Of a stretch of 64,000 bases of DNA, positions 49,798 through 64,000 are shown piece by piece. Made by a program: the position numbers and the translations under genes. The DNA is from Haloplanus ruber (GTDB lineage Archaea > Halobacteriota > Halobacteria > Halobacteriales > Haloferacaceae): NCBI RefSeq assembly GCF_024494725.1, contig NZ_JANHDK010000005.1:1-64000 (forward strand). Reading direction: 5' to 3'. Position 1 is the first letter of the stretch. Each line of letters starts with the position of its first letter. The notes under the pieces are model-generated. The model was not told the origin of the DNA. It saw nothing but the letters and a program-made list of their open reading frames with translations, and made no database searches.

Positions 49798-51549
49798 TTA
49801 GTCGCTGCTGGCCGGGTCGTCGCCGTCCCGCACGTCCGTTACCATCTCGTCGCCGGCTGTCACCACGTCGACGTTATCACGATCGGTGAGTTCGTCGATG
49901 GTTTCGGCGAACTCCTCGGATTCGAGAATCTCGTACTCGTTGCTGAGCCCGAGGTAGACGGTGTAACACATCAGACAGAGGATGATGGCGAAGGGAAGGC
50001 CGGTCGTGATGGCGGCCGTCTGGAGCGCCGTCAGGCCGCCGCCGTAGAGCAGGATGGCGGCGACGGCACCCTCGGTAACGGCCCAGAAGATGCGCTGGAC
50101 GCGGGGCACGTCGTGTTTGCCGCCGGAGGTCAGGTGGTCGATGACCAGCGAGCCGGAGTCGGAGGAGGTGACGAAGAAGGTGACCACCAAGAGGGTCGCG
50201 AGAATGCCCGAGACAGCGCCGAGCGGGAACTGTTCGAGCATGGCGAACATGGCGACCGTCTGGCCGAGTTCGTTGTAGGTCGCGAGCGCCGCGCCGTTGC
50301 CCTGCAGCGAGTTGAACAGGGCAGCCCCGCCGAACGTCGAGAGCCAGATGGTGGAGAAAATCGCCGGCAGCACGAGGACGCCCATCACGAACTGTCGGAT
50401 GGTCCGGCCTTTCGAGATGCGGGCGATGAACATCCCGACGAACGGCGACCACGCGATCCACCAGCCCCAGTAGAAGACGGTCCAGGCGGTGACCGTCCCC
50501 CCACCAGGCGCGAGGGTGCCGCGGAAGAAGCCGAGCGCGAGAATGTTACCGAAGTACGCGCCGAGTCCTTCGACCCACGCGCCGAAGATGTACACCGTCG
50601 GCCCCACGATCAGGAGGAAGCCGAGCAGGGCGAACATCAGATAGAGGTTGATCGTGCTCAGACGCTTGACCCCGCCGTCGAGGCCGGCCGCGACCGAGAG
50701 GGTCGCGATGCCGGTGATGCCGGCGATGAGGAGCACCTGGACGAACGTGTTCGTCGGAATGGAAATGAGACCGAGGAGGTCGCCGCCGACGTAGGAGAGC
50801 CCCTGGTTCACCTGCGCCACGCCGAGACCGAGTGAGGTAGCCAGGCCGAACAGCGTCGCAAACACCGTCACGAGGTCGATGACGTGGCCCGGCCAGTCGT
50901 AGATGCGGTCACCGAGCAGGGGCCAGAAGATGGAGCGGAACGTGAGCGGCAGGCCACGATTGAACGAGAAGAACGCGAGGCCGAGGCCGACGAGGCCGTA
51001 GATGGCCCACGGATGGAAGCCCCAGTGGAAGAACGTCTGGGCGAGTGCCGCCGACGCCGCCGCCCCGGTCCCCGCCTCGGCGCCCCAGAAGCCGGGGACG
51101 TTTTGGAGGTAGTAGAGCGGTTCGGAGACGCTGAAAAACATGAGACCGATCCCCATGCCGGCGCTGAACAGCATTGCCATCCACGAGAAGTCGCTGAACT
51201 CCTTTTCGGCTTCGACGCCGCCGATTTTGATCTTGCCGTACTTGCTGAACGCGAAAAAGAGGAGAACGACGATAAAGAGGTTCACCGCCAGCAGGTAGAA
51301 CCAGCCGAAGTTCTCGCCGATGAAGTTGAACAGGGCCGTGTACATCGAGGCGGCCTGATCCCCGAGCAGGATCGTGATCGAGATAAACAACGCGATGATC
51401 ACGAGCGCAACCGGGAAGACGACTGGGTGGATGTCGAACCCGAGCGCTTGGATGTTGGTGTCGCCTGGTTCGCGGTCGGATTCGGGGTGGAACAGCTCTA
51501 CCTGTAGCCCCTCGGACATCTCGCCAGTCGTGTCGTCTGATTCAGCCAT
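49798..51549 (-). CDS. BCCT-family betaine/choline/carnitine transporter
   Basis: This 583-residue secondary transporter has 12 transmembrane helices, an acidic N-terminal tail and an acidic C-terminal tail. Family motifs are FHWGFHPWAIY and the substrate/sodium-site helix FYWGWWIAWSPFVGMFIARI, followed by SKGRTIR. BCCT proteins take up glycine betaine, choline, carnitine, ectoine or DMSP with sodium or protons. It is the last gene of the leftward half of a betaine-catabolism island, so glycine betaine for catabolism is the likely cargo. Confidence 0.92.
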   Translation of the reverse strand: MAESDDTTGEMSEGLQVELFHPESDREPGDTNIQALGFDIHPVVFPVALVIIALFISITILLGDQAASMYTALFNFIGENFGWFYLLAVNLFIVVLLFFAFSKYGKIKIGGVEAEKEFSDFSWMAMLFSAGMGIGLMFFSVSEPLYYLQNVPGFWGAEAGTGAAASAALAQTFFHWGFHPWAIYGLVGLGLAFFSFNRGLPLTFRSIFWPLLGDRIYDWPGHVIDLVTVFATLFGLATSLGLGVAQVNQGLSYVGGDLLGLISIPTNTFVQVLLIAGITGIATLSVAAGLDGGVKRLSTINLYLMFALLGFLLIVGPTVYIFGAWVEGLGAYFGNILALGFFRGTLAPGGGTVTAWTVFYWGWWIAWSPFVGMFIARISKGRTIRQFVMGVLVLPAIFSTIWLSTFGGAALFNSLQGNGAALATYNELGQTVAMFAMLEQFPLGAVSGILATLLVVTFFVTSSDSGSLVIDHLTSGGKHDVPRVQRIFWAVTEGAVAAILLYGGGLTALQTAAITTGLPFAIILCLMCYTVYLGLSNEYEILESEEFAETIDELTDRDNVDVVTAGDEMVTDVRDGDDPASSD

Positions 51550-51838
51550 GCCATCCCTCCGTCCGGCAGTTGCCGGTCGTCCGTCGTAAGTTGCTCATGG
51601 GTCGTATGTTCGTATCGTCGGTTGTCGTGCTGTGCGCCGACCGCTCGCCCATCTCGGCCACATGCGGGGGTCGTCGTTGCCTGCCTATGGATAGCTCCAC
51701 CCATGGCAGGAAGCCACATGGGTACCTCTTGGTTGTGTCAGATAAAGCTTGGTGTTTCCCGAACTGTCGTTCCTGCGGCGCCGGGCGGCCGACGGGACCG
51801 CCCCGTCGTCGCTTCGGTACCGGATCTACGCCACCCGG
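51550..51838. other. Intergenic region between transporter and dehydrogenase genes
   Basis: This is 289 bases without a convincing gene. A leftward TATA-like gcaacttacgacg near 51582-51594 could start the transporter mRNA independently of the dehydrogenase. Short ATG frames here lack protein-like composition. The gap suggests separate control of uptake and breakdown. Confidence 0.4.
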
Positions 51839-54391
51839 CTACCGGACGATCTTCTCCCGACCGGGGTCGAACAGCGGTTCCTCGCGCACGGTGGCGTCGT
51901 ACGTCTCCCCTTCACAGGTGACCTGCACCGCGGTGCCGGGCGTCGCGTGCTCCTTCGGCACATATGTGTAGGCGACCGAGGCGCCGACGCTGTAGCCGTA
52001 GTCGGCGGCTTGGACGTAGCCGAGCGTCTCGCCGTCTTTCGTGACGGGGCGGCCGCTCAGCAGCCGATCCGTGGAGTCATCGAGCGTGAGGGGGACGATT
52101 CGGCTATCGACTCCCGACTCACGGCGCTCGGTCAGCGCGGCCTTCCCGACGAAGTCGGTGTCCGTGTCGACGGCGAACCCGAGGCCGGCGGCGACCGGTC
52201 CCACGTCGGTGTCGATGTCCGTCCCCCAGAGTCGATAGCCCTTCTCTAGGCGCATCGACTCCAGCGCGCCGCCGCCCATGGGGCGCACGTCGAGGTCCTG
52301 GCCTGCCTCCCACAGGGTCTCCCAGAGGCGGTCGCCGTACTCCGCGGGCGCCCACAGTTCCCAGCCGAGTTCGCCGACGTAGGAGACCCGGAGCGCGAGC
52401 ACCGGCACCTCGCCGACGTACAGTCGCTTGGCCGAGAAGTAGGGGAACCCCTCGTCGGAGACGTCGGCTTCGGTCACCCGCTGGAGCAGGAGCCGCGACT
52501 TCGGCCCCCAGAGTCCGACGGTGGTGCGTGCGCCCTCCTCGACGGTGACCGAGACGGTATCGGGCGCGTGTTCCTTCAGCCACCCTCCGTGAATCCCTGG
52601 CGAGTTGCCGCCCCCGGTCGTCACCACGAACTCGTCTTCGCCGAGGCGGACGACGGTGACGTCCGCGAGGATGGTCCCTCCCTCGTTCAGGAGGAGTGAG
52701 TACCGCACCCGCCCCGGATCGACGTCGATATCGTTGGTACAGACCCACTGGAGGAAATCGACGGCCTCCGGACCCTCGACGGTGATCGAACTGAACGACG
52801 ACATATCGAACATGGAGACGTGTTCGCGGGTGTGGCAGTGTTCGGCGCCCTCGATGGGCGAGCGGTTGATCGCCTCCCACCCCTCCTGTTCGGGGATGCG
52901 GTCCGCGTACCGGTCGACGAGGTCGGCGTTGGATTCGTACCACTGAGCCGACTCCCAGCCGCCCTGCTGGACGAACTCGGCCCCGAGGTCAGCCTGCCGG
53001 TGATGGAAGGGGCTCCGCCGAAGGCCGCGGTGGTCGCTCGGTTGCCAGTTCGGTTCGACGATGCTGTACACCTGTCGGTACCGCGTTGCGCCCCGGTCGA
53101 CGAAGTAGGACTTGCTGCCGGCGTGAGGTTCGAACCGGTTCACGTGGATGGCACCCGTATCGACGGGACCGTCGGGGAGTTTCGGGACACCCGTCTCCAT
53201 CCACTCTGCAAGGATCTTGCCGTAGCCCCCGGAGTGGGTCCACCAGACGGCGAGACCGGTCCACAGGCCGTCGACCGCCGCCGTCTCGCCCAGCACCGGC
53301 ATTCCGTCGGGGGTAAACACGAAGATGCCGTTCTCGGTCGCCGCGAAGTCGACGTCCTCGGTGACCGGGAGGAGTTCCTCGAAGGCTCGCTTGGGCGACG
53401 TGTCGCGGTCGGGGTGGGTCGCCCGCTCCCAGTGTTCGTCGGTGAAGTCGTGGACCGACGCCTGCCGCTCTGCGGTGTTTTTCCCCATGGCGTCGGGATC
53501 GACCGTCAGCGACTCGTGGTTGTAGGACCCGAGGCCGAGCGCGTCGCCGTGGGTCCGGAAGTACAGCGAGTGGTCCTGATCGCGGCCGACCGGGCGGCTG
53601 GGTCCCTTGCCCATCGCGTCGGCGATGCGGTGGTCGCCGGGCACCTCCAAGTCGCCGGTGTCGACGCGGGTCGCTGACTCCACGCCGGCCAGTTCGTCGA
53701 GCGGTTCGGTGACCGTATACTGGTGTTCGACGGGCGCGATAGGGAGGTCGACGCCCGCCAACTGGCCCGTGCGGTAGCCCCAGTTGTTGGTCGCGAGCAC
53801 ACAGCGGTCACACGCGATGGTTCCTCGGTCAGTTTCGACTGCGGTCACCTCGCCGCCGGTCACGTCGAGGTCGGTCACCGTCGTGTGCCCGTGGAAGTCG
53901 GCGTCAGACTGCTCAATGTACCACTGGAGGGCGGCGACGCCGTCGACCCGGCCGTCGGTCGGCGAGTAGTACCCGCCGCGGATGGCGTCTTCGTCTACCA
54001 GCGGGAGGTAGTCGGTTACCTCCGCCGGTGTCAGCAGTTGCGGGTCGGGCAGCCCGTAGGCGGTGGCGTGTTCGACCCGTCGCTGGAGGAAGTCCATCCG
54101 TTCTGCCGAGCGTGCGACCTCGATACCGCCGACCTCGTCGTAGACGCCGGCGTCGGCGAGCAGGCGACTGGTGTAGTGAGCCGTCTTCGTCATGAGCTTC
54201 GACGGCGACGTCTGGAACATGATACCGGGGGCGTGTGTCGACGAGCCGCCGGTGACCGGCAGCGGTCCCTGATCGACGACGACCACGTCCTCGGCGCCGA
54301 GTTCCGAGAGGTGATACGCGACGCTGCAGCCGACCGCGCCGGCACCGACGACGACGGTTCGTGCCGATTCCGGGAGTGTGTCCGCACTCAT
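51839..54391 (-). CDS. Dimethylglycine/sarcosine-dehydrogenase-like flavoprotein with GcvT domain
   Basis: This 850-residue protein has two halves. Residues 1-~420 are a DAO-type FAD oxidoreductase with the dinucleotide motif VVVGAGAVGCSVAYHL. H53 in SSTHAPGIMFQ sits where DMGDH carries its FAD-linked histidine. Residues ~440-850 are the GcvT-like half that binds tetrahydrofolate and captures the released methyl as methylene-THF (YRLWGTDIDTD and GLGFAVD near the end). It should demethylate dimethylglycine or sarcosine. It follows the sarcosine-oxidase gene by 71 bases. An A-rich element near 54424 is a weak promoter. Confidence 0.88.
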   Translation of the reverse strand: MSADTLPESARTVVVGAGAVGCSVAYHLSELGAEDVVVVDQGPLPVTGGSSTHAPGIMFQTSPSKLMTKTAHYTSRLLADAGVYDEVGGIEVARSAERMDFLQRRVEHATAYGLPDPQLLTPAEVTDYLPLVDEDAIRGGYYSPTDGRVDGVAALQWYIEQSDADFHGHTTVTDLDVTGGEVTAVETDRGTIACDRCVLATNNWGYRTGQLAGVDLPIAPVEHQYTVTEPLDELAGVESATRVDTGDLEVPGDHRIADAMGKGPSRPVGRDQDHSLYFRTHGDALGLGSYNHESLTVDPDAMGKNTAERQASVHDFTDEHWERATHPDRDTSPKRAFEELLPVTEDVDFAATENGIFVFTPDGMPVLGETAAVDGLWTGLAVWWTHSGGYGKILAEWMETGVPKLPDGPVDTGAIHVNRFEPHAGSKSYFVDRGATRYRQVYSIVEPNWQPSDHRGLRRSPFHHRQADLGAEFVQQGGWESAQWYESNADLVDRYADRIPEQEGWEAINRSPIEGAEHCHTREHVSMFDMSSFSSITVEGPEAVDFLQWVCTNDIDVDPGRVRYSLLLNEGGTILADVTVVRLGEDEFVVTTGGGNSPGIHGGWLKEHAPDTVSVTVEEGARTTVGLWGPKSRLLLQRVTEADVSDEGFPYFSAKRLYVGEVPVLALRVSYVGELGWELWAPAEYGDRLWETLWEAGQDLDVRPMGGGALESMRLEKGYRLWGTDIDTDVGPVAAGLGFAVDTDTDFVGKAALTERRESGVDSRIVPLTLDDSTDRLLSGRPVTKDGETLGYVQAADYGYSVGASVAYTYVPKEHATPGTAVQVTCEGETYDATVREEPLFDPGREKIVR

Positions 54392-54462
54392 AGAACGTCC
54401 CGTACGTCTCGCCGAACCCGTCAAAAGGTTCCGGGTGCCTCACCTGCGACGTTTAATTCAGC

Positions 54463-55605
54463 TCACTCGAACCGGTCCAGACGGAACATCTCGATGGCGT
54501 GATCGGTATCGCCGTCGGCGGTCAGATCCGCGAGAATCTCGCCGATGACGCTCGCGAACTTGAAGCCGTGACCCGAGAAGCCGGCGCCGACGGTCACCTG
54601 CGGATGTTCGGGCAGGGTATCGAGGATGAAGTGTTCGTCGGGGGTGTTGGTGAACATGCAGGTGGCGAGGCTCATCGTCGGCCCGGCGGCTTCGGGGAAG
54701 TACTTCTCGGTGAAGTCTCGCAGGAGCACCTCGTCGGCCCGGCCGGGGTCGGTGTCGTAGTCGTCCGGGTCGACCGTCTCGTCGAAGTGGTGGTACTTCC
54801 CGAGTTTGAACCCGGGCACGTCGTAGACCGGGAAGCCGTAGAATCGACCTTCCGGAACCTCGATGTTCCACACGGGGAGGGTTTCAGGCTCGAACAGTTC
54901 GGGTGTCTGCGGCTGGAACCACGCGAGCGCCTGCCGTTCCGGCACCGCCAGTCCCGACAGGGCGTCGGCGAGCTTGTAGTTCCACGCCCCCGCCGCGAGG
55001 ACGAGCCGTTCGGCCTCGTAGACCGCCTTGTCGGTCCAGACGCGAACGCCGCCGTCGGCGGTCGGCACCCAGTCCTGGACGGCCTCGCGGGCCCGAATCT
55101 CGGCGCCTGCGGCCTGTGCCTGCTCCGTGTGTCCGATGATGGACTGCTCGGGGACGACGAAGCCGCCGTCCTCTTGGTAGAGCGCGCGGTAGTCCGCCGG
55201 AAGGTCGTAGCCGGGGAACCGCTCGTTTAGCTCCGCGCCCGTCAACACCTCGTGTGGGATGTCGTGTTCCTCACAGGAGCGGCGCGACCCCTCGAACACC
55301 ACGTTCCCCTGCGGCCCGGCGTCGATAGAGCCGGTCCGGTGGATCACGGGTCGTCCCGTCTCCTCGGCCAACTCGTCCCAAAGCTCGTACGCCCGCTCGA
55401 TCAGTGGGATGTAGGATGGATGCTCGTAGTACGCCCGCCGGATGATCCGGGTGATGCCGTGCGAGGAGCCCTGCGTGTGCGGGATATCGAACCGCTCCAG
55501 TCCCAGCACATCGATTCCCCGGTCGGCTAGGTGATACGCGGTTGCGCTGCCCATGCCCCCGACGCCGACGACGATCACGTCCCGACGCTCGTCGTTCGAA
55601 CTCAT
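54463..55605 (-). CDS. Monomeric-sarcosine-oxidase-like flavoenzyme (SolA/MSOX type)
   Basis: This 380-residue DAO-family flavoenzyme has the FAD-binding VIVVGVGGMGSATAYHLA and LERFDIPHTQGSSHG. C316 in CMFTNTPDEHF matches the cysteine that covalently binds FAD in monomeric sarcosine oxidase and N-methyltryptophan oxidase. It oxidises an N-methyl amine (sarcosine, dimethylglycine or an N-methyl amino acid), releasing formaldehyde and hydrogen peroxide. It lacks a folate domain, unlike its neighbour. It is the first leftward gene from the divergent control region. Confidence 0.88.
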   Translation of the reverse strand: MSSNDERRDVIVVGVGGMGSATAYHLADRGIDVLGLERFDIPHTQGSSHGITRIIRRAYYEHPSYIPLIERAYELWDELAEETGRPVIHRTGSIDAGPQGNVVFEGSRRSCEEHDIPHEVLTGAELNERFPGYDLPADYRALYQEDGGFVVPEQSIIGHTEQAQAAGAEIRAREAVQDWVPTADGGVRVWTDKAVYEAERLVLAAGAWNYKLADALSGLAVPERQALAWFQPQTPELFEPETLPVWNIEVPEGRFYGFPVYDVPGFKLGKYHHFDETVDPDDYDTDPGRADEVLLRDFTEKYFPEAAGPTMSLATCMFTNTPDEHFILDTLPEHPQVTVGAGFSGHGFKFASVIGEILADLTADGDTDHAIEMFRLDRFE

Positions 55606-55794
55606 ACGGCGCGGTTTGGAGGGGAGGGTATTGACGCTTTGGTCCGGTTGCACGGATCGGGAACGAGCTCAAATTAACAGCACTATCTTTGTTACTATCT
55701 ACCGGCGCGCGACCATCGTCTACGGGCGCTGACTTATACGCCCGAGATAACGCAGGTGTACGCTTATGTGTGGACAGAATAACTATCATTATCG
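55606..55794. promoter_or_regulatory. Divergent control region of the betaine island
   Basis: This region separates the leftward oxidase operon from the rightward methyltransferase operon. It contains two rightward TATA-like boxes (cttatac ~55732-55738; cttatg 55763-55768). The latter is 29 nt before the ATG at 55795, so that gene is leaderless. It also has an AT-rich patch (caaattaac, ~55671). The word ACTATC occurs three times (55682, 55694, 55782), a candidate repeated operator. Confidence 0.5.
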
Positions 55795-57180
55795 ATGACA
55801 CATAACGACTCCGCGGCGGCCGGTGGTCACCCGAATCACCCGGAGATCGACCAGTCGGATCGGACGCTCCCCCGGAACCTGCGGCAAACCGGCGACCCGG
55901 GAATCGAAATGCTCGTCTCGACGCGGGTCCGAAAGTCGCCCTTTTTCGATAAGTCGTTCAACGAGGAGGGGGCGTGGCGCTGTACGGTATACAATCGGAT
56001 CTACCACCCACGGGGATTCGTCGACCCCGAAGACGGCGGCGCGATGAAGGAGTACGAGGCGCTGACAGAGAGCGTGACGCTGTGGGACGTCGCGGTCGAG
56101 CGACAGATCCGGGTGAAAGGACCCGATGCCGAGGCACTCACCGACTACGTCATCACGCGTGACGCGACGGGGATCGATCCGATGCACGGGAAGTACGTCA
56201 TCCTCTGTAACGAGGACGGCGGCATCCTGAACGACCCGATCCTCCTCCGGGTCGCGGACGACGAGTTCTGGTTTTCCATCTCCGACTCGACGCTCATGCA
56301 GTGGCTCCAGGGCGTCAACGTCGGGATGGACTTCGACGTCGAAATCGACGAAATCGACGTAGCCCCGATGCAGATCCAGGGGCCACTCTCGGAGGACGTG
56401 TTGGTCGACGTCGTGGGCGAGGCGGTCAGCGACATCCCCTACTACGGGCTGATGGAGGCGGAGATAAACGGCTGTCCGGTGCTGGTGAGTCAGACCGGCT
56501 TCTCCGGCGAGAAGGGGTTCGAGATCTACGTCAGGGACGCGAGCGAGAACGCCGAGCGGGTGTGGGATCCGGTGATGGAGACGGTCAAGGCCCACGGCGG
56601 CCGACAGATCGCACCGGGACACCACCGCCGGATCGCGGCGGGCATCCTCTCGTGGGGGCAGGACATGGACCACGAGACGTCGCCGTTCCAGGTCAACCTC
56701 GGCTATCAGGTTCCCGACGACAAGGAGGCCGATTATGTCGGCAAGGAAGCACTCGAACGTCAGCAGGAACTGATCGAGAACGGCGAGTATCCATTCTCCC
56801 TCAAGATGGTCGGGCTGAAGATCGCCGGGGAGCCGATCCGGGAGTACGCGCCGGACTTTTGGATCGTCTCCGACCCCGACACCGGCAAGGAGTGTGGCTA
56901 CATGACCTCGCCGTGGTGGAACCCCGACCTCGAAACCAACATCGGGCTGGGGTTCGTGCCCGCCGAGACACTGCAGGCCGAGACGGACGCCCTGCTCGGC
57001 GACGAAATCTACGAGGAGGATCTCGATCTGGAGTTCGCGGTCCATCTGCCCGACGAGTACGCCGAGGAGCCGGGAGACCCCGTGTACGCAACCGTCGCGG
57101 AGGTGCCGTTCAAGGAGTCGGTCAACCCGAGCGCCCGCGAGCAGGCGAAACTGAACGCCCGTCAGGACGCCACGGAGTAG
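55795..57180 (+). CDS. GcvT/DmdA-like folate-dependent methyltransferase
   Basis: This 461-residue protein is a free-standing aminomethyltransferase-fold protein. Recognisable GcvT elements are GVxxDVAVERQIRVKGPDAEA-like spacing in LWDVAVERQIRVKG, VSQTGFSGEKGFEIYV, and the C-terminal barrel (GKECGYMTSPWW, GLGFVP). Its length and N-terminal extension (VSTRVRKSPFFDKS) are closer to DMSP demethylase DmdA and aryl-demethylase LigM than to the glycine-cleavage T protein. It probably transfers a methyl from a methylated substrate to tetrahydrofolate. It is followed 53 bases later by metF. Confidence 0.82.
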   Translation: MTHNDSAAAGGHPNHPEIDQSDRTLPRNLRQTGDPGIEMLVSTRVRKSPFFDKSFNEEGAWRCTVYNRIYHPRGFVDPEDGGAMKEYEALTESVTLWDVAVERQIRVKGPDAEALTDYVITRDATGIDPMHGKYVILCNEDGGILNDPILLRVADDEFWFSISDSTLMQWLQGVNVGMDFDVEIDEIDVAPMQIQGPLSEDVLVDVVGEAVSDIPYYGLMEAEINGCPVLVSQTGFSGEKGFEIYVRDASENAERVWDPVMETVKAHGGRQIAPGHHRRIAAGILSWGQDMDHETSPFQVNLGYQVPDDKEADYVGKEALERQQELIENGEYPFSLKMVGLKIAGEPIREYAPDFWIVSDPDTGKECGYMTSPWWNPDLETNIGLGFVPAETLQAETDALLGDEIYEEDLDLEFAVHLPDEYAEEPGDPVYATVAEVPFKESVNPSAREQAKLNARQDATE

Positions 57181-57233
57181 CCCCCGACAGCCCTAACAGC
57201 CAGCCGACCTAACGTCAGACGCCCGGATTCGAC

Positions 57234-58082
57234 ATGTCTCTCACCACACACGCCGACGACGCATCGAGCCTGCTCGTCGACCCGCGGTTCGAGCTGATGC
57301 CCTTCGACAGCTTCGAGGGGCAGATGGAGCAACTCCCCGAGGGCGCCGAGATTGCGGTCACCGCCTCGCCACAGCTCGGCCTCGACGCCACGGTGGAGTG
57401 GTCGGAGAAGGCAGCGGCGCGTGGCTACGATCCCATTCCGCACCTCGCCGCCCGCTACGTGCGGGACGCGGACCACCTCGACGAGATGGCCGGGCGACTC
57501 GCCGACGCGGGCGTCACCGATATCTTCGTCCCGGGTGGGGACCGCGAAGACCCCATCGGCGAGTTCGAGGCGGCTCACGACCTCCTCGTGGCTCTCGACG
57601 ACCTCGATTACTCCTTCGAGGAGGTGGGTATCACCGGCTACCCCGAAGGACACGACTTTCTCGACGACCGGACGCTAGCCACGGCCATGGAGCGGAAAGC
57701 CCCCCACGCGACGTATCTCACGACGCAACTCTGTTACGACCCCGAGACAATCCGGCGGTGGATCGAGGGGGTCCGTGACCGCGGGATCGACCTCCCCGTC
57801 GAAGTCGGTATTCCCGGCGTGATGAAGTACCAGCGCCTGCTGAGCATCTCCCAGAAGGTTGGCGTCGGCGATTCGGTGCGCTTTCTCCGCAAGACCAGCG
57901 GTATCGTCGGGTTTGTCCGCCAACTCGTCGGATCGCGCGGGAAATACACCCCCGACGACCTGGTCGACGGGCTGGCACCGTACGCTGCCGACCCCGACTA
58001 CGGCATCCGGGGCCTCCACATCTACACGTTCAACCAAACGGCCGACACCGAGGCGTGGCGTCGCGGACGGATCGACGAGTGA
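57234..58082 (+). CDS. metF: Methylenetetrahydrofolate reductase (MetF)
   Basis: This 282-residue TIM-barrel flavoprotein interconverts 5,10-methylene- and 5-methyl-THF. Conserved segments are EIAVTASP, DPIPHLAARYVRD, DIFVPGGDREDP, VGITGYPEGHDF and GLHIYTFNQTADTEAW. It is slightly shorter than E. coli MetF. Beside a methyltransferase that would yield 5-methyl-THF, it probably runs in the oxidative direction, feeding the methyl to the folate C1 pool. Co-transcription with the gene at 55795 is likely. Confidence 0.88.
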   Translation: MSLTTHADDASSLLVDPRFELMPFDSFEGQMEQLPEGAEIAVTASPQLGLDATVEWSEKAAARGYDPIPHLAARYVRDADHLDEMAGRLADAGVTDIFVPGGDREDPIGEFEAAHDLLVALDDLDYSFEEVGITGYPEGHDFLDDRTLATAMERKAPHATYLTTQLCYDPETIRRWIEGVRDRGIDLPVEVGIPGVMKYQRLLSISQKVGVGDSVRFLRKTSGIVGFVRQLVGSRGKYTPDDLVDGLAPYAADPDYGIRGLHIYTFNQTADTEAWRRGRIDE

Positions 58083-58101
58083 CGAGCAACCTCACGGAGA
58101 A

Positions 58102-58139
58102 CCGACCGAATGATTCGTTCGCAAGAATATATCGGTCGG
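58102..58139 (+). terminator. Stem-loop downstream of metF
   Basis: A perfect 8-bp inverted repeat, ccgaccga (58102-58109) and tcggtcgg (58132-58139), encloses a 22-base loop. It starts 20 bases after the metF stop, with a nested cgaat-g-attcg hairpin at 58107-58117. There is no T tract, so it may be a 3'-end processing or stabilising structure rather than a terminator. Confidence 0.4.
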
Positions 58140-58181
58140 ATCGTCACCACACCATCGTGTTGGCTGAAAAACACGAACACG

Positions 58182-58203
58182 TTACTTAAGAGCCTCACGT
58201 GAG
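58182..58203 (+). promoter_or_regulatory. Promoter and palindrome of the Rieske oxygenase gene
   Basis: A TATA-like ttacttaag (58182-58190) is followed by the perfect 10-bp palindrome ctcacgtgag (58194-58203). The predicted transcription start is near 58215, so the palindrome lies between the TATA box and the start site, where a repressor would block the polymerase. The leader is about 32 nt. Confidence 0.5.
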
Positions 58204-58246
58204 ACAGGTCAGGGACTTTGGGGTCACGTCGTCGATGTGATGATAC

Positions 58247-59389
58247 ATGACACGGTGGAACGACGGCGTCGCGGAACTGAATGCCGTGAGCCCCGATATC
58301 ACCGACGAGACGAACGCCCTGCCGGCGAAATACTTCACCGACCCGGACGTGTGGGAGATGGAGAAAGAGAAGGTATTCGGGCGGTACTGGATCTACGCGG
58401 GTCACGAGAACTGTATCCCCGACGCGGGTGACTACTTCACTCGCACCGTCGGCGACAAGCAGGTCATCGTCGCCCGCGACGACGACGGGACGGTGCGTGC
58501 GTTCTACAACGTCTGTGCCCACCGCGGGTCGAAGATGGTCGAGGACACGCCGATGACCGACCCCGGAAACATGGATCGGATCCAGTGTCCGTACCACCTC
58601 TGGACGTACGACCTCGACGGCGACCTGCGGAGCACGCCACGGAGCTTCGAGGAGGCGAGTCTCAACCCGGATCTCGACGATTCGGACGTCTCCGGCCTCG
58701 ATCCCGACGAAAACGGCTTACTCGAGGTCCAGACCGACAGCATCGGCCCGCTGGTCTTTCTGAACTTCGCCGACGATCCGCCACATACCCTCGACGAACA
58801 GGCCGGGAGGATGAAGACACGACTGGAGTCGCTGCCGCTCGAGGAGTACCAGCACGCCCGTCGGTACGTCTCCGAGGTGGAGTGCAACTGGAAGACCTTC
58901 GGGGGCAACTACTCGGAGTGTGACCACTGCCAGGCGAACCACCAAGACTGGATCACGGGGATCCAACTCGACGAGTCGGAACTGGAAGTCAACGACTACC
59001 ACTGGGTCCTCCACTACACCCACGAGGAGGACATCGAGGACGAACTCCGCATCCACGACGAACACGAGGCGCAGTTCCACTACCTCTGGCCCAACTTCAC
59101 GGTCAACATGTACGGCACCGCCGACGGCTACGGCACCTACATCATCGACCCCATCGACGAGGGTCGCTTCCAGTTGATCGCGGACTACTACTTCGCGGAC
59201 CCGGACCTCAGCGCGGACGAGGAGGAGTTCATCCGGACCAGCCGACAGCTGCAGGAAGAGGACTTCGAACTGGTCGAACGCCAGTACGAGGGGCTCACGT
59301 CCGGCGCGCTCGGGCAGGGACAGCTCGGCCCGAACGAACACACCCTCCACCGCTTCCACCGACTCGCCCAGGAGGCGTACAACGCGTGA
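58247..59389 (+). CDS. Rieske oxygenase alpha subunit, quaternary-amine type (glycine-betaine monooxygenase-like)
   Basis: This 380-residue Rieske non-haem iron oxygenase has the 2Fe-2S ligands C90-H92 (CAHRG) and C114-H117 (CPYHLW). The bridging residue is E224, followed by the iron ligands H227 and H232 in the segment NYSECDHCQANH. A glutamate rather than aspartate bridge is the mark of the CntA/GbcA/stachydrine-demethylase group, which removes a methyl from quaternary amines. With dimethylglycine and sarcosine enzymes beside it, glycine betaine to dimethylglycine plus formaldehyde is the best guess. No reductase (GbcB-type) gene is adjacent. Confidence 0.88.
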   Translation: MTRWNDGVAELNAVSPDITDETNALPAKYFTDPDVWEMEKEKVFGRYWIYAGHENCIPDAGDYFTRTVGDKQVIVARDDDGTVRAFYNVCAHRGSKMVEDTPMTDPGNMDRIQCPYHLWTYDLDGDLRSTPRSFEEASLNPDLDDSDVSGLDPDENGLLEVQTDSIGPLVFLNFADDPPHTLDEQAGRMKTRLESLPLEEYQHARRYVSEVECNWKTFGGNYSECDHCQANHQDWITGIQLDESELEVNDYHWVLHYTHEEDIEDELRIHDEHEAQFHYLWPNFTVNMYGTADGYGTYIIDPIDEGRFQLIADYYFADPDLSADEEEFIRTSRQLQEEDFELVERQYEGLTSGALGQGQLGPNEHTLHRFHRLAQEAYNA

Positions 59390-59733
59390 CGGCCGACGAC
59401 GCCCCGTTCGTGGCGTGCTGTCCCGACTGCGCCGAGCGGACGACGGCGTCCGACCCCAACGAGGTGGTGGCCTTCTACCGCCGGCACCACGCGGTCACCG
59501 GCCACGACGTGACGTGGGAGCGGATGCCCTCGTTGGGGACCAACCTCCCCGCCGACCCCGACATCGACGCCGTCGTCGCGGCGCTCGACGACTCGCCCGT
59601 CGCTCTCGGCGCGGTCAGCGCAGCGGCGAGCGAGTGGGGCTGGACCGTCGGCGAAACGCTCGATGCGGTCCACGACCGACGGCTGACCGGCGCCCTCTGG
59701 GAGCCACGGGACGACCACGTCGCTCTCGTCTGA
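59386..59733 (+). CDS. Small zinc-finger/winged-helix-like protein coupled to the Rieske gene
   Basis: This 115-residue protein begins CCPDC (C11, C12, C15). H34, H35 and H40 follow in YRRHHAVTGHD, a likely C2H2-type zinc site. Its C-terminal ~50 residues look winged-helix-like: GAVSAAASEWGWTVGETLDAV, then a wing ending WEPRDDHVALV. The GTG start overlaps the oxygenase stop as GTGA, so the two are translated together. It could be a local regulator or an accessory protein for the oxygenase. No known family is claimed. Confidence 0.7.
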   Translation: MTADDAPFVACCPDCAERTTASDPNEVVAFYRRHHAVTGHDVTWERMPSLGTNLPADPDIDAVVAALDDSPVALGAVSAAASEWGWTVGETLDAVHDRRLTGALWEPRDDHVALV

Positions 59734-59964: not shown

Positions 59965-60255
59965 TCACTCCCCCGTCTCGCGCAAGAACACGGTCCCGGT
60001 GCTTCGGACGACGACGGCGTACCCCCCGTAGGAGAAGGTGAGACAGCCGTCGGACGGGTGCCCGTCGTCCCCGGTGTCCCACAGTCCGTCGAGGGCAGCC
60101 ACGTTGATGCGGGAGTCCAGTGGCGGGAGGTCGTCCGGATCGGTGTCCGCAAGCGAGGCGACGGCATCGACGATGTCGTCGCTCAGGGAGTCCCCTGCCG
60201 TCCCGTCGTGGTGGACGCGATGGATCTCGTCGGGGTCCGTGATACCAGTACTCAT
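59965..60255 (-). CDS. HalOD1 output-domain protein
   Basis: This 96-residue protein matches the haloarchaeal HalOD1 output domain. It has an N-terminal helical region (SLSDDIVDAVASLADTDPDDL), then LPPLDSRINVAALDGLWD and a C-terminal beta-sheet GGYAVVVRSTGTVFLRE. HalOD1 proteins are putative signalling outputs with unknown mechanism. It follows the Bat-type gene by 61 bases and has its own TATA-like element (cataaac, ~60308-60314) and a hairpin touching the start codon. The gap 59734-59964 holds nothing recognisable. Confidence 0.82.
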   Translation of the reverse strand: MSTGITDPDEIHRVHHDGTAGDSLSDDIVDAVASLADTDPDDLPPLDSRINVAALDGLWDTGDDGHPSDGCLTFSYGGYAVVVRSTGTVFLRETGE

Positions 60256-60256
60256 A

Positions 60257-60272
60257 CCCGAATAAGTTCGGG
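60257..60272 (-). promoter_or_regulatory. Hairpin abutting the HalOD1 start codon
   Basis: A perfect inverted repeat, cccgaa-taag-ttcggg (60257-60272), ends one base before the ATG of the HalOD1 gene. In the mRNA it would fold over the ribosome-binding region. As DNA it could be an operator. Which applies cannot be told from sequence alone. Confidence 0.45.
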
Positions 60273-60316
60273 CAGGCCGTTGACTCTCCGGGTGTCTCAC
60301 CTGTGCCGTTTATGTC

Positions 60317-60964
60317 TCACCCGTCGGACAGGATCGTCCGCTCGATGAGTCGCGAGGTGCCGCGCCGGATGCGGCCGCCGACGGCCGTCGGGGAGATGTC
60401 GAGTGTCTCGGCCAGTTCCTGTAGCGAGGTGTCGCGGGGTTCCTCGAAGTAGCCCGCCTCGTAGGCGGCCAGCAGCGCGTCGCGCTGGGGATCGGTGAGT
60501 CCCACGCCGCCGTCGACGGTGAACTCGTCGAGGCTGTAGATATGGTCGATGCGAAAGTCGATGTCCTCGCCGTCGCAGTGCTCCCAGAGCGCGCTCAGCG
60601 CCTCTCGGTCTGGGAGTTGCATCCGGACCGACCAGCCGGTGTCGGTCCCCTTGGCTTCGAGCATGAGGCCACCCATCTCGGTCGTGATTGGCGAGACGAG
60701 TTTCGTTCCCGGGGTGTGTTGGAGCCGGTAGATCCGCGTGGTCGATGCCTCGGCGATCAGCGTCGACGCCTCGACGGTGTGGTCGCCGTCGAGCGCCGCT
60801 TCGAAGTTCGCAAACGCGTCCGACTCGACTAGGAAGAAGAACATCCCCGTCTCGGGGTCGGTCGCCGTATGCGAAACCACCTGAATCGACGCCTCCGTCT
60901 CGCGGACGGTGGGCGTGAGCGCCAGATCCGGGTGGTTGATCTCGACCACGGCGATGAGGCTCAT
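60317..60964 (-). CDS. Bat-type helix-turn-helix regulator
   Basis: This 215-residue protein has an N-terminal sensor-like half (MSLIAVVEINHPDLALTPT) and a C-terminal Bat HTH_10 domain. The latter is recognised by VGLTDPQRDALLAAYEAGYF, then ELAETLDISPTAVGGRIRRG and RLIERTIL. Such proteins regulate nearby metabolic or light-response genes. It lies 93 bases after a fumarylacetoacetase-family gene in the same direction. It is a candidate regulator of the neighbouring betaine island or of that hydrolase. Confidence 0.88.
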   Translation of the reverse strand: MSLIAVVEINHPDLALTPTVRETEASIQVVSHTATDPETGMFFFLVESDAFANFEAALDGDHTVEASTLIAEASTTRIYRLQHTPGTKLVSPITTEMGGLMLEAKGTDTGWSVRMQLPDREALSALWEHCDGEDIDFRIDHIYSLDEFTVDGGVGLTDPQRDALLAAYEAGYFEEPRDTSLQELAETLDISPTAVGGRIRRGTSRLIERTILSDG

Positions 60965-61945: not shown

Positions 61946-62070
61946 CGGGCGTAGTACTCTCGCCGTCGGTATAAACTCCGGCGGCGGATCGAGCGCCGAG
62001 TACGCCCCGATCCCCCGACGCCGCGTCGCGAGGGTTTATGTCGGACCCCTCGTTTCTCCATGCAACTCCC

Positions 62071-63129
62071 ATGGTACTCGGACTGTCGGGCCCACTCGTC
62101 TCGGTCGTGTTGTTTCTGGTCGGCGTCGTCGTCGTCATCGTCAGCGTCGAGGCGTTCATCGAAGCGGTCGCCGAGGGCGCGCTCGCGCTCGGGGTTTCCG
62201 GCTTCTTTCTCACCGTCGTCCTCGCGGGGACGGACCTCGAAAACGTGATCCTCGGGGTTGCCGCCGCGTACGACCAACTGCCCGACCTGGCGCTCGGCAC
62301 CGTCTTCGGTGAGGCTCTGTTCATCCTCGGCGCGGCCGTCGGCATCGCCGGCGTGTTGGTCCCCTTCGAGACGGACGTGCCGCGGAACTACCTGGGGATC
62401 ACGCTTCTCGCCCCGTTTCTCTTCTTCGGCCTCGCGCTCGATGGCACCCTCTCGCGGTTCGACGGCGCCGTCCTCACCGCAACCTTCGTCCCCTATCTCG
62501 CCGTCATCTACATGCTCGAACGCTACACCGACACCCGTTATCTCTCGGCCGAGGAGGTCGAGGTCATGGAGCGGGAGCGAGAACGGGAGACCGACGCCGA
62601 GGAGGACGAGGACGCTGACGACGGGTGGGTCGACCTCGACGTAGACGTCGACGACTTGGTCGAGGACCACGTTCCCGAACGCCACGAGGGCGCGGCGTTT
62701 CTCGGCATCGCCATCCTCGCCACCGTCGGCATGACGGTCGGGTCCGAACTCGCCGTCGAGGGGGCCAAGGGCTTGCTCACGCTTCTGGGTGTGACCGGCC
62801 TCGCCTTCGGCGCGACGGTCATGAGCTTCATCGCGTCGCTGGAAGAACTGTTCCTGACGGTCGAACCCGTCAGGCGGGGCCGCCCACATATCGGCGTCGG
62901 CAACGTCGTCGGGAGCATGCTCTTTTTCGTCAGCGCCAACGCGGGACTGATCGCGCTGGTACACCCCCTCGATACGACGGGGGCCGTCATGACCGTCCAC
63001 TGGCCGTTTTTCTTCGGCACCCTGCTTGTCGTCGCCGCCGCCTTCTACCGGGGGAAGGTGGGCCGTCCCACCGGCGTCCTCCTCCTCGGGGCGTACGTCG
63101 TCTACTGGGTCGCGAACTACGCGGTCTGA
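62071..63129 (+). CDS. CaCA-family sodium/calcium antiporter-like protein
   Basis: This 352-residue exchanger has the two inverted alpha-repeats. Repeat 1 is GTDLENVILGVAAAYDQLP and GTVFGEALFILGAA; repeat 2 is SLEELFLTVEPVRRG and GVGNVVGSMLFF. An acidic cytosolic loop (~residues 165-215) separates them. The first ATG (62038) lies within the TATA-like gtttatg (62034-62040), so the ATG at 62071 is preferred (34 nt from box centre, leader ~6 nt). It is convergent with and abuts a second CaCA gene. The ion is unproven. Confidence 0.85.
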   Translation: MVLGLSGPLVSVVLFLVGVVVVIVSVEAFIEAVAEGALALGVSGFFLTVVLAGTDLENVILGVAAAYDQLPDLALGTVFGEALFILGAAVGIAGVLVPFETDVPRNYLGITLLAPFLFFGLALDGTLSRFDGAVLTATFVPYLAVIYMLERYTDTRYLSAEEVEVMERERERETDAEEDEDADDGWVDLDVDVDDLVEDHVPERHEGAAFLGIAILATVGMTVGSELAVEGAKGLLTLLGVTGLAFGATVMSFIASLEELFLTVEPVRRGRPHIGVGNVVGSMLFFVSANAGLIALVHPLDTTGAVMTVHWPFFFGTLLVVAAAFYRGKVGRPTGVLLLGAYVVYWVANYAV

Positions 63130-64000
63130 TCACTCCCCGATGGGTACCCCGCTGAAGACGACGAGCGCGACGACCCAGTAGGCGACATAGAGGCCGCCGA
63201 GCAGACACCCGTGCCAGCGTTTCATCTCCCCCTCGTAGAAGCAGTAGGCAGCGATAGCGGTCACGACAATCATCGCCGGGAGGTGAACGGTCAGCACGGA
63301 CGGCGAGATGGTCACCTCGCTGAGGAACGTGATGACGCCGATGTTGCCGGTCACCGAGAACAGCACGCTCCCGATGACGTTGCCGACGCCAATCTCGGGA
63401 AAGCCCCGTCGGACCGGCTCGATAGTGAGCATGATATCCTCGAACGTCAGCAAGAGCGTGAGGAAAGTCGCCCCGAACACCGTCTCGGAGATGCCGAACC
63501 CTTCGATGACTACCTCGGACCCGCCCTCTAAGAGCATCGCCGCGAAGACGATGCCCGCGAGCGCGACGAGAGAGAGGGCGATCCACACGAGCCCGGAGTT
63601 TGCGAGATCACCCAGCACACGCTCCTCGGGAATCTCCTCGAGCGCGTCCGACCGCGTCGCAGTCCCACCGTCGGATCGGAGCTGTTCCCCGAGTTCCGTG
63701 TTGCGAAACACCGGCACCTCGCGCTGGCGCTCGCGGACGATGATGTAGCCGAACGCAAAGACGAAAAATGCCGTCAGTACGACGCCGTGAACGGCGGTCA
63801 GTGTCCCGAGCAGGACGAACGGAACGAGGACGAGCGGTGCGAGACCGAAGACGACGATGTAGTCGTTCGGCAAGTCGACCGGGAACGGGCGGACGACGGC
63901 GGCGAGCGCGAGCGTGACGCCGATGATCGCCAGCCCCGTACCGAGCGCAGTTCCGAGCGCCGCCTGCTCCAGTCCGCCGCCCGACAGGACCAACGCGAGA
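63130..64000 (-). CDS. CaCA-family antiporter-like protein, N-terminus beyond the window
   Basis: This partial protein of at least 290 residues resembles its neighbour at 62071, with a comparable first-repeat segment (LGTALGTGLAIIGV). The second repeat, TFEDIMLTIEPVRRGFP then GVGNVIGSVLFSVTGN, is nearly the same as in the neighbour. Its acidic cytosolic loop lies near EELPEERVLGD-like sequence. The 5' end is outside the window, so the start and first alpha-repeat are not seen. The two genes abut stop to stop with no base between them, probably an inverted duplication of one ancestor. Confidence 0.82.
   Translation of the reverse strand, partial: LALVLSGGGLEQAALGTALGTGLAIIGVTLALAAVVRPFPVDLPNDYIVVFGLAPLVLVPFVLLGTLTAVHGVVLTAFFVFAFGYIIVRERQREVPVFRNTELGEQLRSDGGTATRSDALEEIPEERVLGDLANSGLVWIALSLVALAGIVFAAMLLEGGSEVVIEGFGISETVFGATFLTLLLTFEDIMLTIEPVRRGFPEIGVGNVIGSVLFSVTGNIGVITFLSEVTISPSVLTVHLPAMIVVTAIAAYCFYEGEMKRWHGCLLGGLYVAYWVVALVVFSGVPIGE

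Follow-up and report, generated by a model that had tools for sequence, protein, structure and literature searches.

Seven adjacent genes of Haloplanus ruber, located at 49798-59733 of a 64,000-nucleotide stretch (contig NZ_JANHDK010000005.1, positions 1 to 64,000 of the forward strand; hereafter the window), encode a BCCT-family transporter, two flavoproteins of the dimethylglycine oxidase (DMGO) and monomeric sarcosine oxidase (MSOX) types, a protein of the DmdA/GcvT superfamily, a MetF-like protein, a Rieske non-haem iron oxygenase, and a small HVO_B0008-family protein (Table 1). Judged from the encoded families, the cluster likely serves the catabolism of N-methylated glycines. In the leading model, to which a probability of about 0.58 is given, the first step could be carried out by either of two enzymes, the Rieske protein or the DmdA-like/MetF-like pair.

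The preliminary description of this DNA had placed seven genes here, and all seven open reading frames lie exactly at these positions with Pfam domains far above the cut-offs. They do not form one back-to-back operon: MSOX, DMGO, and BCCT form a minus-strand unit and DmdA/GcvT-like, MetF-like, Rieske, and HVO_B0008-like genes a plus-strand unit, which diverge from a shared 141-bp region. This layout is kept in 4/4 genus mates. Six genes were named earlier, and the one left unnamed is the small HVO_B0008-like gene. A common motif upstream of both units, TGTGTGGACA, was rejected, as it is no more frequent than chance would give and is not conserved in genus mates. Since the gap in front of the Rieske gene holds a block conserved in a genus mate, the sequence suggests that the Rieske and HVO_B0008-like genes may be a separate unit with its own promoter.

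Table 1. Genes and intergenic features of the cluster and its flank (positions in the window).
Feature	Position	Strand	Evidence
BCCT-family transporter, 583 aa	49798..51549	-	PF02028 594.7 bits
Dimethylglycine-oxidase-type flavoprotein (DMGO-A), 861 aa	51839..54424	-	DAO+FAO_M+GCV_T+GCV_T_C (PF01266+PF16350+PF01571+PF08669)
Monomeric sarcosine-oxidase-type (MSOX) flavoprotein, 396 aa	54463..55653	-	DAO
Shared divergent promoter region, 141 bp	55654..55794	none	sequence read
DmdA/GcvT-superfamily protein, 461 aa	55795..57180	+	GCV_T (PF01571)
MetF-like protein, 282 aa	57234..58082	+	MTHFR (PF02219) 44.1 bits, cut-off 24
Gap upstream of Rieske gene, 164 bp	58083..58246	+	block CACGTGAGACAGGTCAGGGACTTTG common to genus mate L031
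Rieske non-haem iron oxygenase, 380 aa	58247..59389	+	Rieske (PF00355) + Ring_hydroxyl_A (PF00848)
HVO_B0008-family protein, 115 aa, CxxC + His residues	59386..59733	+	HVO_B0008_N/_C (PF25214, PF25215)
HalOD1-domain (DdfA-like) small protein	59965..60300	-	PF18545; NF053557 77.6 over 70
BAT/HTH_10 regulator	60317..60964	-	PF04967 + PF15915

Predicted route from betaine to glycine

The cluster is predicted to import glycine betaine and to remove its three N-methyl groups, and from the protein families we infer the substrates and the direction of each step. The BCCT protein scored above the cut-off of the general subfamily model TIGR00842 (469.9 bits, cut-off 407.55) and below that of the betaine_BCCT equivalog NF047988 (514.4 of 650 bits), with a trimethylamine transporter (8zw8) as its best solved relative; betaine uptake is its likely role. 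For the second step, the conversion of dimethylglycine to sarcosine and methylene-tetrahydrofolate (methylene-THF), the DMGO protein is the candidate. It aligned over the full length with Arthrobacter dimethylglycine oxidase 1pj5 (E 1e-171) and kept the His of GGSxxHAPG together with the catalytic 1pj5 positions H225, Y259, and D552; in the same alignment, the residue of 3gsi at position 552 is not that of 1pj5. Sarcosine would then be oxidized to glycine by the MSOX-type protein (E 7e-88 against MSOX 1el5), which retains the flavin-linking Cys of CMxT and the aligned substrate-binding residues of the active site. Whether sarcosine or another N-methyl amino acid is its substrate is not decided by the NCBIfam models: the N-methyl-L-tryptophan oxidase model PRK11259 gave 497 bits over a cut-off of 257, and TIGR01377 (soxA_mon) gave 319 bits with a cut-off of 480.

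Glycine and methylene-THF would finally be turned into serine and pyruvate via serine hydroxymethyltransferase (SHMT), glycine cleavage, and an ammonia-lyase encoded elsewhere in the genome. Checks of the genome itself, which rest on family and protein searches plus three fetched stretches, placed formate-THF ligase, FolD, and three SHMT genes outside the window cluster. At a separate locus (L245:6723-14693), genes for SHMT, an ammonia-lyase, and a 2Fe-2S ferredoxin lie near one for an apparent lipoamide dehydrogenase and two of the glycine-cleavage P-subunit type (identity read by eye). Ruegeria growing on betaine raises its serine ammonia-lyase and the proteins of THF-linked one-carbon (C1) oxidation (PMC12478193).

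At related loci, the recurrent neighbours were Ser/Thr ammonia-lyase, SHMT, FolD, formate-THF ligase (Fhs), PabA/B, FolC/P, dihydrofolate reductase (DHFR), and RidA, which are the set needed for the formation of serine and pyruvate from glycine and C1 units and for a steady supply of folate. The families and the overall N-methylglycine catabolism read in the preliminary description are supported by the domains, the catalytic residues of the two flavoproteins, and these neighbours completing the route. The clustering is far beyond chance, since this set of genes is found together repeatedly in different haloarchaeal families.

The composition of the cassette varies. Plasmid pNG700 of Haloarcula marismortui holds in one stretch DHFR, DmdA-like, MetF, a second DMGO, Rieske, B0008, DMGO-A, ammonia-lyase, and BCCT genes, and pHH400 of Haloarcula hispanica shows this core order with Rieske and B0008 missing. 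Within the window's genus, DmdA-like and MetF genes were present in 5/5 genomes, and two interchangeable slots, each varying independently, occurred in four combinations: MSOX with Rieske and B0008 (window's genome, G000), MSOX without Rieske (G293), a second DMGO, again without Rieske (G257 and G370), and a second DMGO with Rieske and B0008 (G367).

Two candidates for the first demethylation

The conversion of betaine to dimethylglycine would be open to either of two unrelated enzymes, both encoded in the window. The Rieske protein would consume O2, draw electrons that a 2Fe-2S ferredoxin probably supplies, and release formaldehyde. The DmdA/GcvT-like protein would instead pass the methyl group to tetrahydrofolate (THF), after which the MetF-like protein would oxidize methyl-THF to methylene-THF.

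The Rieske protein contains the cluster ligands C90, H92, C114, and H117, the mononuclear iron ligands H227, H232, and D339, and the bridging E224. Its best solved relative is the carnitine monooxygenase CntA (6y8j, E 9e-41). Tyr222 occupies the position of CntA Y203, at which 3vca, the stachydrine demethylase Stc2, shows Asn in the same alignment. Group V oxygenases are split by residue 203, which is aromatic in carnitine, choline, and benzalkonium oxygenases and Asn in the betaine and stachydrine demethylases of group Vb (PMC7948474). The window protein carries the marks of group Va, with an aromatic residue at 203, the Glu205 equivalent, and 2-His-1-Asp. On these motifs it is a group V enzyme, yet not a GbcA member, as it fails the GbcA model NF058607 (139.3 bits, curated cut-off 670), and it is proposed to be a betaine N-demethylase.

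One sample of 392 genomes of the order was used for every search. A family search found no FNR-type reductase (PF00175) in the window's genome, the same search giving 133/392 genomes of the order. PF00175 was present in 25/69 genomes with the Rieske protein, where ~23 would be expected by chance, so that the two are not associated in the order. Since no such reductase was found in the genome, which contains nine Fer2-domain matches, a 2Fe-2S ferredoxin is the likely electron donor. The reading as an ordinary betaine monooxygenase is not supported in view of the GbcA score, Tyr for Asn, and this reductase search. The HVO_B0008-family protein may have an accessory role for the oxygenase, because none of the fetched loci with a close relative of this Rieske protein lacked it (31/31; neighbour genes at fetched loci were counted by tblastn).

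The DmdA/GcvT-like protein remained under the DmdA model NF009133 (241.4 bits, cut-off 410) and formed with its haloarchaeal relatives a monophyletic clade (100/100) outside DmdA proper, in a tree of a small panel with long branches. The position contacting dimethylsulfoniopropionate (DMSP) is Phe in the window protein and expected to be Trp in DmdA, which is not discriminating because an annotated Phaeobacter DmdA has Tyr there. An AlphaFold model on a shallow alignment had a mean pLDDT of 54.5. The protein is proposed to be a cobalamin-independent betaine:THF methyltransferase. The gene of the MetF-like protein, whose best solved relative is 7xg9 (E 2e-32) and which did not reach the equivalog TIGR00676 (52.7 of 293.7 bits), was present in 22/35 DmdA-like loci of ~20 kb each. 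DMGO already yields methylene-THF by the established chemistry of these families, so a MetF-like protein would become necessary with methyl-THF as the product, and reoxidation of methyl-THF to methylene-THF is its proposed function. An uncharacterised aminomethyltransferase-metF pair is known from SAR11 (PMC3160333).

Other DmdA relatives were also encountered. A second DmdA-like group with ~70% identity (L109, L110, L111, L112, and L114) lies away from DMGO, MetF, and BCCT genes. On Phaeobacter/Loktanella plasmids (L126, L127, and L136), a DmdA relative with 36-41% identity accompanies OsmC, enoyl-CoA hydratase, and acyl-CoA synthetase genes, possibly as another DMSP-type operon.

At thresholds of E<=1e-60 for Rieske, E<=1e-50 for DmdA-like, and E<=1e-100 for DMGO, the proteins were found in 69/392, 95/392, and 139/392 genomes, respectively. 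This frequency, together with the fact that betaine use by haloarchaea was already raised in a 2011 paper (PMC3102087), does not fit the earlier view of betaine catabolism as a striking life-style choice for a halophile. A Rieske or DmdA-like protein was present in 137/139 genomes with DMGO versus 6/253 without it; the six comprise four with divergent Rieske relatives (44-54% identity) and two incomplete genomes (71 and 86%). Among the DMGO genomes, 43 had Rieske only, 73 DmdA-like only, 21 both, and 2 neither (Fisher p 1.6e-17 for exclusion). By genus (45 in all), eight were Rieske-only, 24 DmdA-like-only, and 11 mixed or both, and the exclusion persisted when one genome was drawn per genus (median p 1.4e-6).

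With ancestry thereby partly controlled, the exclusion is as would be expected of two enzymes that substitute for each other at a single step, and because the Rieske and DmdA-like proteins are largely mutually exclusive within DMGO genomes, they may be interchangeable first-step enzymes. A single pathway with one first step is therefore not supported: the free GcvT-like protein and MetF appear to take the place of the Rieske protein rather than to serve folate capture alone. The fuller proposal, in which a cobalamin-independent betaine:THF methyltransferase of the DmdA/GcvT type is evolutionarily interchangeable with a ferredoxin-driven Rieske betaine demethylase and the window possesses both, is tentative, and we place it slightly short of an even chance.

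Weighing of other explanations

Several points weigh against the two-enzyme first step. The presence/absence counts share ancestry, and since 21 genomes keep both enzymes, these may not be strictly redundant. The Rieske protein might prefer another quaternary amine, because Tyr222 stands where betaine and stachydrine demethylases have Asn. The relatives of the DmdA-like protein include DMSP demethylases, and no description of a GcvT-fold betaine methyltransferase was found in the literature, with most subscription journals outside the search. Ser/Thr ammonia-lyase and SHMT genes do not adjoin the cluster in the 64,000-nucleotide window. A growth test of H. utahensis on betaine was negative and growth of H. 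walsbyi was not enhanced (PMC3102087), in strains not checked for the presence of this locus.

The Rieske protein could act one step earlier and convert choline or carnitine to betaine-type products, with betaine itself demethylated by the DmdA-like protein alone. Tyr222 is a signature of choline, carnitine, and benzalkonium oxygenases rather than of betaine demethylases, and some Rieske paralogs lie near iron alcohol dehydrogenase and betaine-aldehyde-dehydrogenase-like genes. We nevertheless consider this unlikely, as the 43 DMGO genomes with Rieske and without DmdA-like protein would be left with no enzyme for the betaine step, and the exclusion pattern fits one shared step. Moreover, benzalkonium oxygenase removes an N-alkyl group. 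It belongs to the same residue class (PMC7948474). DMSP or another sulfonium compound as the substrate of the DmdA-like/MetF pair, which would then have only the C1 pathway and its location in common with the betaine genes, is improbable, even though DmdA is the closest characterised family and the nearest fetched plasmid-borne bacterial relatives adjoin genes for an acyl-CoA synthetase and an enoyl-CoA hydratase, an arrangement that fits DMSP demethylation. DMGO plays no part in that process, yet is present in 94/95 genomes with the DmdA-like protein, and a recurrent acyl-CoA synthetase/enoyl-CoA hydratase pair was not recognised among the recurrent neighbours. The cut-off and tree position relative to DmdA, as well as the exclusion with a quaternary-ammonium-type oxygenase, also argue against a sulfonium substrate.

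Whole gene sets co-vary: two DMGO genes without a close MSOX tend to go with the DmdA-like protein, and one DMGO plus a close MSOX with the Rieske protein. Such co-variation would be expected if the DmdA-like protein acted later, on dimethylglycine or sarcosine, or recycled folate C1 units, with the Rieske exclusion following from the inheritance of two separate gene sets. Among close relatives, however, members of the two sets are combined freely, as the independently varying slots of the window's genus illustrate, and DMGO and MSOX already cover steps two and three. The adjoining MetF gene further points to a methyl-THF product, as would be expected from a fully methylated donor, and a later role is accordingly doubtful at best. 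Least probable of all, and hardly credible, is the absence of any betaine pathway, with the transporter serving osmoprotection and the flavoproteins acting on unrelated N-methyl amino acids. The transporter scores and the unsettled MSOX substrate would permit it; the full-length match of DMGO to dimethylglycine oxidase with a conserved active site and its nearly complete co-occurrence with genes for quaternary-ammonium-type oxygenase or methyltransferase speak against it. The two-enzyme first step is thus retained as the leading model.

Related loci, known systems, and implications

Downstream of the cluster, the BAT/HTH_10 gene is a candidate regulator; such genes were present in 16/31 Rieske loci and 23/35 DmdA-like loci. 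The HalOD1 small protein beside the cluster is conserved in genus mates. Farther along the window, 62038-63129 and 63130-63993 hold two adjacent convergent Na/Ca exchanger-type genes.

Related Rieske loci showed further variation. On Ruegeria/Mesorhizobium plasmids (L162 and L163), a Rieske protein that shares the NYSEC motif lies beside an 824-aa DMGO-type flavoprotein. Tandem paralogs with complementary losses were recorded at loci L049, L052, L131, L132, L200, L201, L203, L204, and L207. A 336-aa paralog keeps the catalytic iron site but none of the four Rieske ligands, and in the two examples scanned its Rieske domain is no longer recognised by Pfam. Its neighbour is usually an intact Rieske copy. 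A mirror-image neighbour, with intact Rieske ligands and without the catalytic His ligands, occurs in Natronococcus jeotgali, N. amylolyticus, and Natronococcus sp. A-GB1 and A-GB7, and also in a Natrialbaceae metagenome-assembled genome and G205 (same genus group). The dN/dS values, where computed, were well below 1 for the two halves (0.22-0.46 and 0.12-0.26). Because electrons cross between subunits in this oxygenase family (PMC7948474), it is plausible that the two half-Rieske proteins form one hetero-oligomer. The nearest precedent found is NdmC, the Rieske domain of which is carried by the reductase NdmD (PMC4408171).

Known first steps of betaine catabolism are those of GbcAB, Bhmt, and the cobalamin-dependent MtgBCD (PMC12478193). 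GbcAB of Pseudomonas and Chromohalobacter is likewise a group V Rieske system with quaternary-ammonium relatives, the same proposed reaction, and the same downstream steps, whereas the window oxygenase scores far under the GbcA cut-off, has Tyr for Asn, and comes from a genome without a detected FNR-type reductase. CntA shares with it the bridging Glu, the 2-His-1-Asp site, and the Tyr203 equivalent; identity is low, however, and the window system has no CntB-type reductase and is linked to DMGO rather than to carnitine genes. In MtgBCD of Ruegeria and Desulfitobacterium, the betaine methyl group also ends on THF and enters C1 oxidation (PMC12478193), but cobalamin and corrinoid proteins are involved there, while a single GcvT-fold protein without cobalamin is proposed here.

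DmdA and the SAR11_1265-metF pair belong to the same superfamily as the window methyltransferase candidate, and the SAR11 aminomethyltransferase adjoins metF (PMC3160333). Unlike DmdA, the window protein falls in a separate 100/100 clade and is linked to DMGO and BCCT genes instead of DMSP genes. The window DMGO resembles the Arthrobacter enzyme 1pj5 in domain order, full-length alignment, and catalytic residues, and differs in being of a haloarchaeal branch with predicted activity.

In haloarchaea, the use of betaine, dimethylglycine, and sarcosine was suggested by Anderson et al. in 2011 for four haloarchaea on the basis of DMGO-BCCT loci, the only paper that a literature search on betaine growth of haloarchaea yielded. 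Its passage on these loci describes the same DMGO-BCCT association and does not mention the Rieske or DmdA-like/MetF first steps or their exclusion (PMC3102087). The new part is comparative, namely the two first-step candidates and their exclusion.

Among the organic solutes of salty water, betaine is one of the most common. If the model is true, roughly one in three of the genomes sampled from the order would be able to eat it, via two unrelated first-step enzymes, one of which would be a type of betaine demethylase without a description found in the literature searched. The model may also hint at what the uncharacterised aminomethyltransferase-metF pairs of SAR11 and other marine bacteria act on.

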